A stretch of DNA of 33,980 bases from the NCBI GenBank assembly GCA_021831685.1, contig JAKBMG010000116.1, positions 1 through 33,980 on the forward strand. Direction: 5' to 3'. Both the position numbers and the translations under genes were made by a program. Position 1 is the stretch's first letter. Each line of letters starts with the position of its first letter. The notes beneath the pieces were generated by a model. The model worked only from the letters and a program-made list of their open reading frames with translations, had not been told where the DNA came from and searched no databases. Shown piece after piece: positions 27,494-33,980 of the stretch. The DNA comes from Bacteroidota bacterium (GTDB lineage: Bacteria > Bacteroidota > Ignavibacteria > Ignavibacteriales > Ignavibacteriaceae).

Positions 27494-28786
27494 ATGAATA
27501 AAAACGACTTCCCTCAAATACCGCTTGCGGAGAGAGTCCGGCCGAAAACTTTAGATGAATTTCAAGGGCAGGAATCATTGCTTGGTAAGGGAAAACCAAT
27601 TCGTTTGATGATTGAGAATGACAGCTTGAGTTCATTTATTTTATGGGGACCTCCCGGCACCGGGAAGACAACAATCGCAAGAATCATTGCCGAACATACA
27701 AAGTCAGAATTTCATCAGATAAATGCCGTTTCTTCCGGTGTAAAAGACATTCGCTCGGTAATAGACATAGCTTCCCAAAATAAATTGATGAATCGGAAGA
27801 CCATTTTATTCATTGATGAAATACACCGTTTTAATAAAGCGCAACAGGATGCTTTGCTTAATTCGGTGGAATCCGGATTAATTATTTTAATCGGAGCTAC
27901 AACTGAGAATCCGTCCTTTGAAGTAATACCGGCGCTTCGTTCAAGAGCAAGGGTTTATATCCTGGAGGAGCTATCAAAAGACAATTTAACCGGTATTCTA
28001 AATTCTGCAATTAAAAAAGACGAATTTCTCGCCTCGTTAAACTTCATAGAAATTGATATAAATTTTTTGCTCTACCTTTCCGGCGGCGATGCCCGCTCAA
28101 TGCTAAGCATTTTTGAAGCGGCTGTCCTTCAGCAAATTCATTCCGGGGAAATAAAAATTGATAAAGAAGTTTTAGAGAATGTGGTTCAGAAGAAAAACAT
28201 TCTTTATGATAAAAGCGGGGAGGAACATTATAACGTAATTTCTGCTTTCATAAAAAGCATAAGAGGCAGCGACCCCGATGCGGCTCTTTATTGGATGGCA
28301 AGGATGCTTGAAGGCGGCGAAGATCCTTTATTTATTGCTCGCCGGCTAGTTATTCTTGCTTCTGAAGACATCGGTAATGCTTCTCCGAACGGGTTAGTGC
28401 TTGCTGAAGCCGCGTTCGGCGCTGTTGATAAAGTCGGAATGCCGGAGGCAAGAATTATTTTAGCTCAATGTGTTACTTATCTTGCATCCTCTCCAAAGAG
28501 TAATGCTTCTTATATGGGAATGGAAAAAGCTTTTGCAGATGTAAAGAATCAACCTCTCTATAACGTGCCGGTTCATTTAAGGAATGCTCCTACTAAATTG
28601 ATGAAAGATATTGGCTACGGAAAGGAATATAAATATCCACACGATTATGAGAATCATTTTGTCGCAGAAAATTATCTTCCTGAAGAATTAAAAAATGCGC
28701 AGTATTATTTTCCGACAGAGAACGGGCAGGAAAAGTCTTTGAAGGAAAGATTAAAGTTTTTATGGAAGAACAGAAAAAGATATTAA
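27494..28786 (+). CDS. rarA: Replication-associated AAA ATPase RarA (MgsA)
   Basis: Clamp-loader-like AAA+ ATPase of the RarA/Mgs1/WRNIP1 family that acts at stalled replication forks. The 430-residue protein starts PLAERVRPKTLDEFQGQESLL. Walker A is GPPGTGKTT and Walker B IDEIHRFNKAQQDALL; the sensor 1 segment is GATTENPSFEV and the arginine-finger region LRSRARV. The C-terminal family domain is clear from RGSDPDAALYWMARMLEGGEDPLFIARRLVILASEDIG to YKYPHDYENHFVAENYLP. The stop overlaps the methyltransferase ATG by 1 nt (TAATG). Confidence 0.95.
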   Translation: MNKNDFPQIPLAERVRPKTLDEFQGQESLLGKGKPIRLMIENDSLSSFILWGPPGTGKTTIARIIAEHTKSEFHQINAVSSGVKDIRSVIDIASQNKLMNRKTILFIDEIHRFNKAQQDALLNSVESGLIILIGATTENPSFEVIPALRSRARVYILEELSKDNLTGILNSAIKKDEFLASLNFIEIDINFLLYLSGGDARSMLSIFEAAVLQQIHSGEIKIDKEVLENVVQKKNILYDKSGEEHYNVISAFIKSIRGSDPDAALYWMARMLEGGEDPLFIARRLVILASEDIGNASPNGLVLAEAAFGAVDKVGMPEARIILAQCVTYLASSPKSNASYMGMEKAFADVKNQPLYNVPVHLRNAPTKLMKDIGYGKEYKYPHDYENHFVAENYLPEELKNAQYYFPTENGQEKSLKERLKFLWKNRKRY

Positions 28787-29742
28787 TGGAATTTTCCTGC
28801 AAAATATGCGGCAACAAAAACGGCAATCAATTCTACAATGTTAGAGAGATGCAATTTGGAACAAGAGATGAATTTATATATTGCCAGTGTTCCGGTTGCG
28901 GATGCCTCCAATTAGTAAATCCTCCGGCGGACTTATCAAAATATTATCCGAAAGAATATTTTTCTTTTCAAATTCATAAAGAAAAATATTTGAAGCAAAA
29001 ACTTAACATTTTACGCGACCGTTATGCATTCGGCATAAAAAATAATCTGGGAAAATTATTGTTTAATAGATACGGAGAGCCAACTTACATAGGGTGGCTT
29101 AAAAAATTTAACATTGATTTAGAAAGTAAAATATTAGATATCGGATGCGGCTCCGGAAAACTTCTTTATAGAATGGGGGACACCGGATTTAAGAATCTAA
29201 TGGGAATAGATGCTTTCATCGAAAAAGATATTTACTATCATAATGGTGTTAGGATATTTAAAAAGGATTTGAATGGGCTCACCGAAAAATTCGATCTGAT
29301 AATGATGCACCATTCATTAGAGCATTTTGAAGATCAACATGGAATATTTAACAAGCTTTCATCAATGCTAACAGAAGATAAAAATTTATTAATTAGAATC
29401 CCTATTTGCAGTTCTTATTCATGGAAATTTTATCGGGAGAATTGGTTTGCTCTTGAAGCTCCGAGACATTTTTACAATCACTCATTAGAGAGTATAAAAT
29501 ACTTGGCGGATAAATATAGGTTTGAAATTATCAACATTTTTTTTGATTCTCGAAGCATTCAATTTTGGGGCAGCGAACAATATAAAAGGGATATACCGTT
29601 GATGGATCAAAGATCATTCTTTATCAACCAAGATAATTCAATTTTCTCAAAGGTGGAGATTGAAAAATTTGAAAGAGAAACGGAAAGATTAAATAAAATC
29701 GGAGAAGGCGATCAGGCGGTTCTTTTTATGAAGAAAATTTGA
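28786..29742 (+). CDS. Zinc-ribbon class I SAM methyltransferase
   Basis: A 318-residue protein with an N-terminal cysteine-rich module (CKICG near residue 5, then CQCSGCGCLQL near 33-43) that looks like a zinc ribbon. A Rossmann methyltransferase domain follows, with the SAM loop ILDIGCGSGKLLYRMG and HHSLEHFED. Such proteins often act on nucleotide sugars or small molecules in polysaccharide clusters, but the substrate is unknown. The frame extends eight codons upstream to an ATG at 28762 inside rarA. The ATG at 28786 in the TAATG overlap is preferred because it begins MEFSCKICG and matches the coupling seen elsewhere here. It converges on dprA with a 2-bp gap. Confidence 0.85.
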   Translation: MEFSCKICGNKNGNQFYNVREMQFGTRDEFIYCQCSGCGCLQLVNPPADLSKYYPKEYFSFQIHKEKYLKQKLNILRDRYAFGIKNNLGKLLFNRYGEPTYIGWLKKFNIDLESKILDIGCGSGKLLYRMGDTGFKNLMGIDAFIEKDIYYHNGVRIFKKDLNGLTEKFDLIMMHHSLEHFEDQHGIFNKLSSMLTEDKNLLIRIPICSSYSWKFYRENWFALEAPRHFYNHSLESIKYLADKYRFEIINIFFDSRSIQFWGSEQYKRDIPLMDQRSFFINQDNSIFSKVEIEKFERETERLNKIGEGDQAVLFMKKI

Positions 29743-29744
29743 GA

Positions 29745-30908
29745 TTACAGAAGCGCAAACATTTTACCCGGTAATTGCTTCACCACTCCTTTGAATTCCA
29801 ATGAAAGAAGATGAACAAGGCAGTCGGAAGTAGATAAGTTTGTAACTGCAGCAATCTTATCAATTTGCACCGGCTCATTGGAAAGAGATGAAATAATTTT
29901 TTCTTCGAACAAATTTAATCCAACCTGGGGCTTAGGAATATTTTTACCAATTACCGGTTTTAACTTAAGCTCCAGTTCAATCAAAACATCCTCGAATGAT
30001 CTAATTAGTTTTGCTTCTCCTCTTTGGATTTTTAGATTTGTTCCTTCAGATTGTTTTACTCCAAGATTTCCCGGTACGGCAAATACTTCTCTGTTCTGAT
30101 CCAGAGCGTAGGAAGCGGTTTGCATTGCGCCGCCGGTAACGCCGGTTTCAATTATAATAGTACCTAGACTGATTCCAGAGATAATTCTATTTCTTTTAGG
30201 GAAATTTACCGCATCCGGTTTTGTTCCCAAACTATATTCTGAAATTATTAATCCGTGTTCGGAAATCTCATTAAATAATTTTTTATTCTCAGGAGGGTAT
30301 ATAACATCTAATCCTGATCCGATAACTGCAATGGTTCTGCCGTTATTCTTTAAAGAAGCGGTATGGGCAATAGTGTCTATGCCGCGAGCAAGTCCGCTTA
30401 CAATTGTAATTCTTTGAGATGCAAGATCGTTAACTAATCTTTCTGCTTGAAGTTTTCCATAATTGGAAGGCTGTCTCGTACCAACAACAGCAATGGAGTA
30501 ATTATCCGGTTCGGCAAAATTTCCTTTATAAAAAAGAATTATAGGAGGGTCATAAATTTTTTTTAAAATCGATGGATACTCATTGTCCCACACAGTAACA
30601 ATAGAGCAACCAAGTTTGTCAAGCTTATCAAGCTGTTTTAATACAATATCTTTTGTTTCGTTACGCTTGTGGTTAATTTGACGTATCCGCTTAGCAAGGT
30701 TGGTGCTTATTCCTTCTATTTCTAAAAGTGAATCGTAGTTTGCGGAAAGAATGTTTTCTGTAGTTTTAAATTTGGAGAGGAGGCTCCTAAATTTTGCGGG
30801 GCCAATTCCCTCTACGGAAAGGAGCAAAAATAAATCAGTTAATTGTTCTGGGTTTAGCTTAGTCAATTTTTCAATAAAATGAATATAATAATAACTGACG
30901 TTACACAA
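29745..30908 (-). CDS. dprA: DNA-protecting protein DprA (Smf)
   Basis: Transformation-dedicated RecA loader that protects incoming single-stranded DNA. The 387-residue protein has three parts. The N-terminal helix-hairpin-helix region (SVEGIGPAKFRSLLSKF, LEIEGIS) is followed by the Rossmann-like core with VVGTRQPSNYG, IVSGLARGIDTIAHTASL, VIGSGLDVIYPPEN and FPKRNRIISGIS. A C-terminal winged-helix-like part ends KGVVKQLPGKMFALL. The start is uncertain: the TTG at 30906-30908 has no good ribosome site, and a TTG 14 codons in (LTKLNPEQLT) is an alternative. Together with comEC it indicates natural competence. Confidence 0.93.
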   Translation of the reverse strand: MCNVSYYYIHFIEKLTKLNPEQLTDLFLLLSVEGIGPAKFRSLLSKFKTTENILSANYDSLLEIEGISTNLAKRIRQINHKRNETKDIVLKQLDKLDKLGCSIVTVWDNEYPSILKKIYDPPIILFYKGNFAEPDNYSIAVVGTRQPSNYGKLQAERLVNDLASQRITIVSGLARGIDTIAHTASLKNNGRTIAVIGSGLDVIYPPENKKLFNEISEHGLIISEYSLGTKPDAVNFPKRNRIISGISLGTIIIETGVTGGAMQTASYALDQNREVFAVPGNLGVKQSEGTNLKIQRGEAKLIRSFEDVLIELELKLKPVIGKNIPKPQVGLNLFEEKIISSLSNEPVQIDKIAAVTNLSTSDCLVHLLSLEFKGVVKQLPGKMFALL

Positions 30909-30972
30909 TATTTATTTTTTAATAACCACTTTCACCTTAGTCGGAGCCGCAACGGATTCACGTCAAGGAGAA

Positions 30973-31032
30973 ATGATCTCAATAATAGGTTTGAGTCACA
31001 GAAATTGCTTATTTAGGCTAAAGGCTGAATAA
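30973..31032 (+). CDS. Possible 19-codon ORF or gene-start relic
   Basis: In the spacer between dprA and the DUF3098-like gene, the plus strand has AAGGAG two bases before an ATG and a 19-residue frame MISIIGLSHRNCLFRLKAE. The first ten residues resemble the start of glutamyl-tRNA reductase (HemA), whose N-terminus has an I-x-GLxHR pattern, but the frame ends at once. It could be a deleted gene's start, a small peptide or coincidence. It would run antisense to readthrough from the DUF3098-like gene into dprA. Confidence 0.2.
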   Translation: MISIIGLSHRNCLFRLKAE

Positions 31033-31033
31033 A

Positions 31034-31324
31034 TTATTTTATCTGAGTATCAGAAGTATTAGTTGATTCAGTTGACTCTTTCTTGGTATAAAGAATTGAT
31101 AAAGGCAAAATAATTAAGTAGCCGATAATTAATAAAACAGGGGAAATATCTAATGAAGCTATGCTATTCCACGGACCCATTGACATAAAAATGAAACCAA
31201 TTATTATTGTAGCAATTCCCGCAAAGAAAATGGCATAATTTGTTTTTGTCCAATATGCGGAAAAGGGAGCGATAAATGTTTTTTTTGCTTTAAGAATACT
31301 TTTCTTTTTAATTGCTTTAGCCAT
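31034..31324 (-). CDS. DUF3098-like small membrane protein
   Basis: A 96-residue inner-membrane protein. A strongly basic N-terminus (KAIKKKSILKAKK) precedes two predicted helices at about 29-48 and 60-79. The block KTNYAIFFAGIATIIIGFIFM followed by ILYTKKE fits the DUF3098 pattern (N-Y-x-hydrophobic, GF-x-M) known from Bacteroidetes, where these genes often adjoin ftsX. No ftsX is seen here. The tail is Ser/Thr-rich and polar. AAGGAG lies seven bases before the ATG. An intrinsic terminator and a strong promoter-like sequence lie just upstream, so expression may depend on readthrough. Function is unknown. Confidence 0.7.
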   Translation of the reverse strand: MAKAIKKKSILKAKKTFIAPFSAYWTKTNYAIFFAGIATIIIGFIFMSMGPWNSIASLDISPVLLIIGYLIILPLSILYTKKESTESTNTSDTQIK

Positions 31325-31342
31325 AGTAAAACTCCTTGTAAT

Positions 31343-31380
31343 AAAAAAAGAAGCCCGGCGATGGGGGTGACACCGGGCTT
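31343..31380 (-). terminator. Intrinsic terminator upstream of the DUF3098-like gene
   Basis: On the minus strand AAGCCCGG (31380-31373) pairs with CCGGGCTT (31358-31351) across a 14-nt loop. A single C and then seven T residues (31349-31343) follow. This is a textbook rho-independent terminator. It lies between a promoter-like sequence (31433-31461) and the start codon at 31324. It must therefore either end a short RNA or attenuate the downstream gene. It may also stop readthrough from the 82-residue gene upstream. Confidence 0.85.
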
Positions 31381-31427
31381 AACTCTGTTTGCTTCAAAGG
31401 GCAGGGGAGAACCCTTCGAAAGAGTCG
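31343..31427 (-). ncRNA. Candidate ~84-nt structured small RNA or attenuator leader
   Basis: From the predicted start near 31427, the minus strand folds as two adjacent hairpins. The first has stem GACTCT (31426-31421) with AGAGTT (31386-31381). It stacks on TTCGAAGGG (31420-31412) with CCCTTTGAA (31401-31393), leaving a 10-nt loop TTCTCCCCTG and a one-sided bulge GCAAAC. The second is the terminator at 31380-31351, which begins at the very next base. Nearly every base is in a helix or loop. I do not recognise it as tRNA, 6S, SRP RNA or a known riboswitch class. Confidence 0.55.
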
Positions 31428-31432
31428 AACTA

Positions 31433-31461
31433 AATATATAATCTTTAAATTATTTTGTCAA
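31433..31461 (-). promoter_or_regulatory. Sigma-70-like promoter TTGACA-17-TATATT
   Basis: On the minus strand TTGACA (31461-31456), a 17-bp spacer and TATATT (31438-31433). The -35 is a perfect consensus and the -10 matches five of six. Initiation is expected near 31426-31427, exactly where the structured RNA begins. It lies 13 bp after the stop of the 82-residue gene. Confidence 0.7.
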
Positions 31462-31473
31462 GATAAAAAATTA

Positions 31474-31722
31474 TTATTTACTAATTTGATAAACAATTTT
31501 TCTAATTGTATCAAATTGCAGATAAGGGTATTCTTCGCGTATGGAGTCGATAGCATCTCCGGCGCTTATTTTGCTCGCCCTAAGCTGCTTAAATTTTTTC
31601 CTTATTTGATAGTCTCTAACTGATTTCTCATCAATTAGACCTTGAGCGCTTAATAGCTCATAAATTTCGTCGCTAATTAAGTCAGACAAGGGGTTGTCAA
31701 TTTTCGCTTTTAAAGTTGCCAT
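31474..31722 (-). CDS. Small hypothetical protein, possible DNA-binding
   Basis: An 82-residue, mostly helical, charged protein with no cysteines, signal peptide or membrane helix. I do not recognise the family. The C-terminal half, SAGDAIDSIREEYPYLQFDTIRKIVYQ, could form a helix-turn-helix: a first helix around DAIDSIREEY and a second around FDTIRKIVYQ. That would suit a small regulator, but this is a weak structural guess. AGGAAGG precedes the ATG at good distance. Upstream is a long leader with alternative RNA hairpins, downstream the small-RNA/DUF3098 region. Confidence 0.6.
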   Translation of the reverse strand: MATLKAKIDNPLSDLISDEIYELLSAQGLIDEKSVRDYQIRKKFKQLRASKISAGDAIDSIREEYPYLQFDTIRKIVYQISK

Positions 31723-31811
31723 AGCTGCCTTCCTTTTTTTTGTGTTTAATCTGTTGCTTAAGAAACAAGTATCAATTATTTAGACGTATACTCCGTTAAT
31801 TTTATTACAAC

Positions 31812-31895
31812 AAAAAACCGATCAGAGAAGTTCCCAAATCGGCACACCTTTGCTACTCTGATCAGAAAAATATTAAAATTTCCCTTAGTAGCAAA
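31812..31895 (-). ncRNA. Candidate regulatory leader with mutually exclusive hairpins
   Basis: On the minus strand three helices compete. Helix A is TTTGCTACT (31895-31887) with AGTAGCAAA (31857-31849). Helix B is GATCAGAG (31863-31856) with CTCTGATC (31827-31820). Helix C is CCGAT (31842-31838) with ATCGG (31822-31818), directly followed by TTTTTT (31817-31812). A and B share bases 31856-31857; B and C share 31820-31822. Helix C with its U-run is a terminator shape, so forming A would free C, while forming B would block C. This is the logic of an attenuator or riboswitch upstream of the 82-residue gene. No known class is recognised. Confidence 0.45.
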
Positions 31896-31901
31896 TCTTT
31901 T

Positions 31902-31930
31902 ATATTACAAGTCCTTTTTTTGTGAGTAAA
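31902..31930 (-). promoter_or_regulatory. Weak promoter candidate for the leader
   Basis: Minus strand TTTACT (31930-31925), 17 bp, TAATAT (31907-31902). Each box matches four of six consensus bases. Initiation would fall near 31895, the first base of helix A, which is the main reason to list it. Confidence 0.35.
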
Positions 31931-32223
31931 AATACAAGGATAATTGAAAAAGTCAAATAGCGGAATAAAAGAATTTTGAATATTTCGAAAATATATCTGC
32001 CTGATGTTTTTAAGGATATGGAGTTTATAATTATTATTCTTAACGTTTTAGCCTTCAAAGAAGAGTTTGATTAAAAAACGATTATTTACTATTGAAGTGT
32101 CTAATAGAATTTTTATACATATTCTTGTTAAAATTATCAAGAATCAAAATGCCAATTTACTTCAATCTTGATTTCAAATTGGAAACTATTAATGCAAATG
32201 ATCACTTCCATTTGGCAATCGAA

Positions 32224-33303
32224 CTAAATTGCTTCAATTGCGCTAAATACTTTTTCCGGGTATAAATACTTCATACAGTCATTAGGGCATATCGGAGAAA
32301 AGTAACAATCACAATCGAAATCTGGCTCTAAAATTTCACCTCTTCCATATAAATAAAATTCATTTTTATTAAAGATATTGTTAAAAAGAATTAGATTCTT
32401 TTTTAATCCAATTGCCAGATGCATAGCCATTGTAACTGCGGACACTATAGTGTCGCAGTTGTTTATCAAAGAAATAAATGTTTTTATCGGATAAAAACCG
32501 AAGTATTTTGCTCCACTTTCTTTTTGTATAAATTTATTTTTAACATCTTCTTGTTCGCCTCCGAGAAGAATAACTTCATAATCATTATTTAATAATTCTT
32601 TTGCAAGCCTTATCCAATAATCGGTTGGCCAAAGACGTGAAGTCCATCTTCCTCCGCAGCCTGTATTTAATCCAATAACTTTTTTAGACCTATCAATATT
32701 CCAACTTTGTCCGGATGTATCTACTTCAAGGATATATTCTTCTCCGTTGAATTCATAACCGCAGATTTCAAAAATTTCCTTTACATAATGTTTTGAATTT
32801 TGCTTATTTAAGTCATCAAACAAGCCAGTTTCCCATTTATGTTTTTCAGCTTCTGTGGCAATCGGCTTTGCATGACCAAATTCATCAATCGTAAAACCCG
32901 ATTTCCTTTTGGCATTTATGGAATTTGTTAAGGAAATTGCAATCGCGTCCTTGTCTAGATTTATCAACCAATCGAAACTAATATTCTTTAGGAACTCAAT
33001 ATTTTCAACTGAAACATTTAATATTCTATCAACTAATGATTTACCTAAGTCTGCTTGTCCTGTAGGGAGAATATCTGGCGAGTAAGTAATCCAGGTAATA
33101 TGAGCATTTGGATGTTCCTTGCGAATTCTACTTAAAAGGGGTGTAGTCCTTATGACATCACCAATTGCGCCTAATTTTATAATTAGAATTGTATCGGAAA
33201 CTCTATTGTATTTTGGACAATCTTCACAATGATAGCCAAATTCTTTATGCGGCTTACAGGGAATATCGCCCTTAAAATAAAGACAGTCAGAATGAATAAT
33301 CAT
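32224..33303 (-). CDS. Family 9 glycosyltransferase with Cys-rich N-terminus
   Basis: Heptosyltransferase-type (GT9, GT-B fold) enzyme of 359 residues, likely adding a sugar to LPS or another surface glycan. ILIIKLGAIGDVIRTTPLLSRIRKEHP is the family N-terminal acceptor loop and VIGLNTGCGGRWTSRLWP the nucleotide-sugar half. SAVTMAMHLAIGLKKNLILF is the donor-binding end. Before the GT domain sit four cysteines (CLYFKGDIPC, then CEDC), and at the C-terminus CDCYFSPICPNDC. This suggests bound metal, which is not part of the standard GT9 core. The frame begins at a TTG (33315), but ATG at 33301-33303 is chosen because GAGG lies six bases upstream. The adjacent Wzz-type gene fits a polysaccharide locus. 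Confidence 0.88.
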   Translation of the reverse strand: MIIHSDCLYFKGDIPCKPHKEFGYHCEDCPKYNRVSDTILIIKLGAIGDVIRTTPLLSRIRKEHPNAHITWITYSPDILPTGQADLGKSLVDRILNVSVENIEFLKNISFDWLINLDKDAIAISLTNSINAKRKSGFTIDEFGHAKPIATEAEKHKWETGLFDDLNKQNSKHYVKEIFEICGYEFNGEEYILEVDTSGQSWNIDRSKKVIGLNTGCGGRWTSRLWPTDYWIRLAKELLNNDYEVILLGGEQEDVKNKFIQKESGAKYFGFYPIKTFISLINNCDTIVSAVTMAMHLAIGLKKNLILFNNIFNKNEFYLYGRGEILEPDFDCDCYFSPICPNDCMKYLYPEKVFSAIEAI

Positions 33304-33615
33304 TTTTAACCTCAAATTTTATAAAAATTATTTTATAGTAGATATAATTTCTTTTGAAAGCTAATTTAATGATTTTTTATTTCTTTTGGGCCCTTAATAA
33401 AAACTTTAATTTATAGGTAATAATTCAAATTTAGACTAAAACCACCTTAATTATTACATTACATTATAAACCCGAGGTAATATTTATTTGTTTTTTCAGA
33501 GTGATTATTCCCATTTTGCTTTCTAATAAGGATATCTTGCAATGTGCATGGTAATTATATTAACTTTGTATAATCTTTTACTAACTTTTAAAATAAAAAA
33601 GTATTAAAATCAATT
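33304..33615. other. Divergent spacer between glycosyltransferase and Wzz-type gene
   Basis: AT-rich region of about 310 bases without a gene. For the plus strand, TATAAT at 33569-33574 and an overlapping TAACTTTG (33561-33568), which fits the Bacteroidetes -7 pattern TAnnTTTG, are candidate core elements. Neither has a clear upstream partner. No repeat or RNA gene was seen. Confidence 0.4.
33310..33313 (-). promoter_or_regulatory. Shine-Dalgarno fixing the glycosyltransferase start
   Basis: GAGG, then TTAAAA, then ATG on the minus strand. The upstream TTG lies inside this site, so the ATG at 33301-33303 is the more likely start. Confidence 0.65.
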
Positions 33616-33980
33616 ATGGTTGAAAAAAAAAACATTGAAAAACGAATGCTTTCCGATTACTTATATATTTTGTATAAGTGGAAAAAATTTTTAATAATTA
33701 ACCTAATTATTGTTGGTGTTATTTCATCAATAATTGCATTTTTATTGCCTAAAGAATACAAAGCTTCTTCTACCATAATGATCCCACCTTCTCAGGATAT
33801 GGGATTGGGCGGATTGAGCAGTTTGCTAGGTGGCAAGTCATCACTAGCGTCTTTGGGCGTGAAAGCGTTTGGGATGTCGGGTACTTCTGAGGATGTCATT
33901 CTTGGTATTATAAATAGTAGGTCTGCATTAACAGATGCAATAAATAAATTTAATTTAATGAAATATTATGAAACTAATAA
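33616..33980 (+). CDS. Wzz/chain-length determinant family protein (5' part)
   Basis: Partial gene cut by the window end; 121 codons are visible with no stop. It starts MVEKKNIEKRMLSDYLYILYKWKKF, then a membrane helix at about 25-44 (LIINLIIVGVISSIIAFLLP), then KEYKASSTIMIPPSQDMG. This is the Wzz pattern: a short cytoplasmic N-terminus, the first membrane helix and the start of the periplasmic domain. A Gly/Ser/Leu-rich loop (GLGGLSSLLGGKSSL) follows. Wzz-type proteins set polysaccharide chain length or take part in capsule export. Whether a C-terminal tyrosine kinase domain follows cannot be seen. It diverges from the glycosyltransferase and probably opens a surface-polysaccharide cluster. 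Confidence 0.8.
   Translation, partial: MVEKKNIEKRMLSDYLYILYKWKKFLIINLIIVGVISSIIAFLLPKEYKASSTIMIPPSQDMGLGGLSSLLGGKSSLASLGVKAFGMSGTSEDVILGIINSRSALTDAINKFNLMKYYETN

Follow-up and report, generated by a model that had tools for sequence, protein, structure and literature searches.

The window analysed here, a stretch of 33,980 nucleotides from a genome of the Ignavibacteriaceae, contains on its minus strand a predicted small RNA of about 84 nt (31343..31426), which is defined by its copies and by covariance matches. The RNA family and its structure are well supported by comparison of the sequences, which also show its promoter, terminator, paralogues and linkage to a gene. We favour, with modest confidence, the reading that it is a small RNA in its own right that acts in trans, that it is usually made as the terminated first part of a transcription unit with a DUF3098-like gene, and that it probably binds G-rich sites through its loop. 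Its transcription, the readthrough, the action in trans, the type of target and the direction of the effect are what we infer.

The −35 box TTGACA (31456..31461), which was read from the sequence and recurs in other members, and the −10 box TATATT (31433..31438) lie on the minus strand with a 17-nt spacer. This confirms, by reading of 31461-31433, the TTGACA-17-TATATT promoter described in an earlier note on this DNA. The predicted transcription start is near 31426, where a basal helix GACTCT/AGAGTT begins (minus strand, 31381..31426; 31426-31421 pairs with 31386-31381). This helix encloses hairpin 1 (minus strand, 31393..31420), in which TTCGAAGGGT at 31420-31411 pairs with GCCCTTTGAA at 31402-31393, and the loop between them reads TCTCCCCT (31410-31403). 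The conserved C-rich apical loop with its flanks, as delimited by loop conservation, is GUUCUCCCCUGC (minus strand, 31401..31412), with CUCCCC as its core. The terminator hairpin (minus strand, 31343..31380) follows as AAGCCCGGTG-TCACCCCCAT-CGCCGGGCTT, then C and seven T residues: AAGCCCGGTG (31380-31371) forms 10 bp with CGCCGGGCTT (31360-31351), and TCACCCCCAT is a second C-rich loop. The T run occupies 31349-31343 and the AAGGAG of the downstream gene 31337-31332, so that the gap is five bases and not six as had been noted; the ATG starts at 31324. The stacked helices and T7 terminator of that description were borne out by reading and by folding. The minimum free energy of the window copy was −36.2 kcal/mol (z −5.2), none of 200 shuffled sequences folded equally well, and the two hairpins were seen in the window copy and in all eight copies folded.

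Scans of the region 28000-33980 gave 21 promoter-like sites against 25.7 in shuffled sequences and three terminator-like sites against 3.7; neither is above chance. The terminator of the window was not listed by the scan because its 10-nt loop exceeds the 3-8 limit of the scan. Since both scans are at chance level in this AT-rich region, the case rests on comparison, and it is the copies in the genome and the matches through the class that raise the locus above chance. It should be mentioned that a further promoter-like sequence, TTGACA-16-TATTAT (11/12), is located on the plus strand at 31180-31207, within the DUF3098-like gene.

A DNA search of the source genome (4.5 Mb, 221 contigs) with the RNA found seven places, and the covariance model R1 was built from these copies. 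R1 then recognised eight strong copies in the same genome, with scores of 76.9 to 112 bits, the next match being at 39.6. The seven copies show compensatory changes, for example GAAGGG/CCCTTT to AAAAGG/CCTTTT. The DUF3098-like gene accompanies the window copy only; other copies adjoin unrelated frames, named by eye from their translations, such as SecF-like and helicase-like frames (L011) and an integrase-like frame (L015). A degenerate copy on contig C107 (L016) retains the terminator half, with hairpin 1 replaced. In one relative, a tandem pair of copies whose starts are 205 nt apart occurs at 1547-1842 of L091.

The family extends through much of the class. With R1 at E ≤ 0.01, matches were found in 47 of 59 related genomes, the source genome included: 13/13 in the genus, 22/24 in the rest of the family and 12/22 in the rest of the order, where many are weak. 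A second model, R2, built from 88 members, matched 102 of 294 class genomes at E ≤ 1e-4, again including the source genome. The RNA is conserved and covarying in these relatives, which is the outcome that the earlier note had asked of a covariance search. In a sample of the phylum, R2 matched 33 of 296 genomes; in the only genome matched from beyond the class (G522, at 38.8 bits) the loop is missing, and this doubtful hit is put down to chance. When named genomes were scanned for an exact pattern, 57 stretches were returned, from genomes labelled Ignavibacteria, Ignavibacteriales, Ignavibacteriaceae, Ignavibacterium, Ignavibacteriota, "Bacteroidetes bacterium" MAGs and BMS3Abin03.

Covariation was counted in two alignments, which were fitted to a model and consist of related sequences, so that the following numbers lean towards structure. 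The first set (99 distinct sequences) has 2301 cells, of which 96.4% are paired; both partners have changed in 23 of its 24 pairs, in 362 cells altogether, where shuffling gives 74.9 and sliding 42-68. The class-wide set (81 distinct sequences) has 1911 cells, of which 94.3% are paired; again both partners have changed in 23 of 24 pairs, in 324 cells compared with 77.3 and 39-69. The structure-free MAFFT alignment of the seven source-genome copies (A1), in which 96.4% of the cells are paired, points in the same direction: in six of the 24 pairs both partners have changed, compared with 2.6. In hairpin 1, all eight modelled pairs change on both sides, and 98.7 and 98.9% of the cells are paired in the two alignments. 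The basal helix is the weakest, with 87.8, 91.7 and 81.5% of cells paired, the last value being that of the class-wide set.

Dispersed copies, one of them beside the integrase-like frame and one degenerate, might also be expected of a passive element, which would insulate genes as a strong terminator or as a dispersed repeat and have no function in trans. Class-wide compensatory change, constant promoter spacing and a nearly frozen loop, however, would not persist in an insulator, and no plasmid or phage record matched the window copy; this explanation is considered to be highly improbable. A mobile element was rejected on the same null result.

While the stems are rewritten, the loop of hairpin 1 is nearly constant. 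CCCC is kept in loop 1 in 165 of 180 rows, and the commonest form of this loop is UUCUCCCCUG (93 rows). The motif occurs in both loops in 116 rows, in loop 1 only in 49, in loop 2 only in seven and in neither in eight. These rows come from alignments A2 and A4 merged by row name; they include weak or doubtful rows, and four loci appear a second time with a different name or different coordinates. GUCGCCCGAU was counted as one loop 2, which single-sequence folds close to a GCCC tetraloop. Of the seven rows with the motif in loop 2 only, L010 and L058 retain UCCC in loop 1; four of the others belong to family f2 and one to f13 (L240). In f2, four of six rows of the loop table have a C-run in the loop of the terminator and none in loop 1, CCCC being in neither loop in the other two (L108 and L109). 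All five matching upstream regions of f2 likewise have the C-run in the terminator only. The reverse is found in f25, where all five rows keep the motif in loop 1 and have lost it in the terminator. We read this as one putatively functional C-rich motif that is carried once or twice per RNA. In the f2 leaders L365, L366, L312, L330 and L334, the gene and the terminator with the C-rich loop are kept, and hairpin 1 is shortened or lacks the CUCCCC loop.

The gene behind the RNA in the window (31034..31324, minus strand) encodes a small protein and is apparently reached only via readthrough or upstream promoters. The protein matches Pfam PF11297 at 22.6 bits (E 7.7e-5). This is below the gathering score of 25, though the protein is related, and the label "DUF3098-like" is used for this reason. 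All 12 aligned relatives of the protein match DUF3098 at E ≤ 0.01 (best 3.9e-7). PMC10434189 contains a table row with a DUF3098 protein.

A DUF3098-like gene is located behind a copy in 89 of 112 genomes and was not detected at 75 of 164 copies. This linkage set of 164 copies from 112 genomes leaves out four repeated entries, L052, L105 and the weakest R1 matches; the 75 unlinked copies include the doubtful rows L246 and L247, and L032 and L048 with less than 600 nt of downstream sequence. L052 is gene-linked on reading, and genome G011 is counted as unlinked only because this copy was left out. The predicted gene start is 0-60 nt behind the end of the model in 58 of the 89 copies and 72-279 nt behind it in four; the remaining 27 starts were called upstream of the model end, an effect of a script that picks the farthest upstream start codon. 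By family, linkage is 32/38 in f1, 2/2 in f2, 4/4 in f3, 17/17 in f5, 6/6 in f7, 1/1 in f13, 12/12 in f14, 12/13 in f19, 2/2 in f22 and 1/1 in f31, and zero in f16 (two genomes), f17 (one), f25 (five), f27 (three), f29 (four) and f43 (one).

The other neighbours differ among these families. Upstream of the RNA in the window is a gene for an 82-aa protein of unknown family (31474..31722, minus strand), for which no Pfam match was found. This neighbour is confined to part of the class: in f1, f2, f3 and f13 it precedes the RNA at linked loci, where dprA follows, and it is absent from this site in the other families. In the latter, LolCE/LolD-like frames (by eye) are upstream in four of six loci read, and tRNA-Lys(TTT), often together with tRNA-Leu(GAG), is downstream in many. 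Since linkage persists amid differing neighbours, the RNA and the DUF3098-like gene travel as a unit. At L043, the RNA is behind the 82-aa gene as usual, and no DUF3098-like frame was found behind the RNA.

Each partner is also found alone. The DUF3098-like gene occurs in 113 of 119 class genomes, and in many families it has no RNA just upstream: among 43 regions upstream of the gene, mostly from genomes with no strong RNA match, five (all f2) matched at E < 0.001 and four more at 0.0057-0.018. Conversely, the RNA is located directly behind tRNA-Met (CAT) in all five f25 loci (L238, L242-L245) and 40-41 nt behind tRNA-Met (CAT) in all three f27 loci (L226, L229 and L230), in both cases with no DUF3098-like gene. 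As judged from these genomes, neither the RNA nor the gene depends on the other.

A sigma70-type promoter (at least 9/12) was found in 106 of 162 distinct member upstreams, compared with 21 of 168 shuffled ones (168 upstreams, one single-base shuffle each), and in 100 of the 106 its end is 5-8 nt before the first paired base. The window copy has both its own promoter and an intrinsic terminator. A promoter at the usual spacing was found in 77 of 89 gene-linked copies, and in only 23 of 75 unlinked ones. Several genus copies away from the gene have CTTGCA-type boxes (by eye), and their control may differ. In f25 there is no room for a promoter behind tRNA-Met; these RNAs would therefore need processing or other promoters.

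Linkage and promoter distribution bear on a second explanation, in which the RNA is a cis attenuator: the two-hairpin leader would set readthrough into the DUF3098-like gene, and the other copies would be decayed or recruited duplicates. The gene is kept behind the RNA even where other neighbours differ, the promoter is far commoner in linked copies, and in f2 the gene has stayed with the C-rich loop of the terminator where hairpin 1 is without its own; all of this would fit such a role. On the other hand, the alignments back the single two-hairpin fold, and loop 1 is kept in the f25 and f27 copies behind tRNA-Met. Nor did pairing within the leader support it: among 85 linked members, cis pairing between the loop and the leader downstream did not exceed that in shuffles (median fraction as good 0.35), and 11 members had at most 10% of shuffles as good, compared with 24 in a coding control region. 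Attenuation is not the general function, because 75 of the 164 copies lack the gene and the gene is without the RNA in many families. At linked loci the RNA may still attenuate the downstream gene, in view of the 89 of 112 genomes; as an account of the family this is rather unlikely. The earlier note had offered an independent small RNA or an attenuator of the membrane protein gene. The former gained from the paralogues away from the gene, the covariation, the nearly frozen loop and the lack of an Rfam match at gathering, and the latter did not hold as the general function. An exception in the leaders is f7 (L171, L172, L173, L178 and L183), where GGGG is directly behind the terminator in five of six, with 0.3 expected; when transcription reads through, this GGGG might pair with the C-rich loops of the same transcript.

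The trans-acting reading requires base-paired targets, and the searches gave no clear ones at ribosome-binding sites. The core CUCCCC might also be complementary to a G-rich stretch of 16S rRNA. The pattern AGGGGAGA-N2-11-ATG was not enriched in 13 genomes of the genus (69 against 67 in the backward control). In 28 genomes outside the genus, AGGGGAGA before ATG occurred 411 times against 271 in controls (1.5-fold), and one of these genomes (G014) had 48 against 13. AGGGGA-N4-13-ATG occurred 151 times in the source genome against 106 in backward controls. Ordinary Shine-Dalgarno sites may explain both excesses (411 against 271 and 151 against 106). In 290 predicted genes of one relative, pairing of the loop was best at the ribosome-binding window (−3.44, compared with −0.97 just upstream), in a set that is biased towards such sites, since the start codons were chosen partly by anti-Shine-Dalgarno pairing. 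Scrambled loops paired with the same windows about equally (−3.02 to −3.63), which leaves little specificity; this comparison used four scrambled CU-rich loops and 400 kb of the relative, and one artefactual tabulated mean was ignored. GGGGAG was found in none of the 290 predicted ribosome-binding windows. In view of this and of the equal scrambles, the loop may bind through a shorter GGAG/GGGA seed, or may bind a protein. The suggestion that the loop could bind ribosome-binding sites is plausible, being favoured by the excess outside the genus and disfavoured by the genus counts and the scrambled loops.

Protein binding is the third explanation, according to which an RNA-binding protein (e.g. 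an RRM or cold-shock protein) recognises the C-rich loop and is titrated or guided by the RNA. A near-invariant short loop on freely changing stems fits recognition by a protein as well as pairing. No Hfq was found over the cut-off in 21 genomes (the source genome and 20 relatives), where one sub-threshold match contained stops; RRM proteins were found in 19 of them, with three in the source genome. According to PMC11697453, the RRM protein RbpB binds a multicopy sRNA family in Bacteroides. However, genomic context ties no protein to the RNA, and one of the two genomes in which no RRM protein was found (G041) has a weak RNA match. This explanation is regarded as unlikely, and we return to the independent RNA that pairs with its targets.

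The order of events under this preferred reading would be as follows. Transcription would start at the base of hairpin 1 from the sigma70-like promoter and mostly end at the second hairpin, giving an independent RNA of ~84 nt on which one or two C-rich loops are exposed. Readthrough would then allow expression of the DUF3098-like gene. In trans, the loop UCUCCCCU would pair with other transcripts where these are rich in G, probably in or close to the translation start (sites of the GGAG/GGGA type), so that translation would be lowered. The extra copies in the genus, several with diverged upstreams, might serve dosage or separate control. Our fuller picture is tentative: the RNA might be an ancient, class-wide translational regulator with a C-rich loop, in a lineage in which no Hfq was found, whose loop was nearly frozen while its stems turned over. 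It would normally be tapped off as the terminated head of the DUF3098-like unit, so that one promoter yields both the RNA and the membrane protein; it would stand behind tRNA-Met in two families, and have eight siblings with differing upstreams in the source genome. The locus offers a natural example of a single promoter that may supply a small RNA and, via terminator readthrough, an mRNA as well, and the RNA provides a handle on post-transcriptional control in bacteria with no Hfq over the cut-off.

Regulatory RNA in Ignavibacteria looks unexplored in the open-licence literature: none of 717 open-licence texts naming Ignavibacteria mentions "sRNA" or "noncoding RNA", and a broader search gave no description of this RNA among the matches listed. 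Rfam 15 gave no match at gathering in the window and only rRNA and tRNA matches in 20 member loci, in agreement with the earlier note, which recognised no known family. At relaxed E there were only sub-threshold matches at the RNA, several of them to small RNAs with C-rich loops. The best weak alignment is with anti-hemB (RF02837, Burkholderia), which likewise has a C/U-rich-loop hairpin followed by a GC-rich terminator; with 25.2 bits, where the gathering score is 49.5, membership was rejected, and anti-hemB is from another phylum. 6S RNA is also an independent RNA just upstream of a co-transcribed protein gene that is reached by readthrough, but its size and structure are unlike those of the RNA described here, and 6S was not matched at gathering in the window or the 20 member loci.

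The nearest parallel to this pattern of evolution is found in the alpha-r14/NfeR1 and cuckoo RNAs of Alphaproteobacteria, which, according to PMC10746234, are short multi-hairpin sRNAs whose stems diverge and whose C-rich motif recurs in two or more loops, the hairpins of alpha-r14/NfeR1 having identical anti-Shine-Dalgarno loop motifs. The present RNA differs in having two hairpins instead of three and CUCCCC instead of CCUCCUCCC, and in its phylum; CCUCCUCCC is absent from the loops listed for the 180 rows. Membership of Rfam ar14 was rejected (22.8 bits against a gathering score of 58.8). The FopS/GibS RNAs of Bacteroides are from the same phylum and are multicopy and RRM-associated; the FopS RNAs bind near start codons and associate with RbpB (PMC11697453). 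RRM proteins are present here too. The phylum sample gave one doubtful match outside the class. We file the RNA as a new family, which may work like the small RNAs with C-rich loops, and assign it to none of these.
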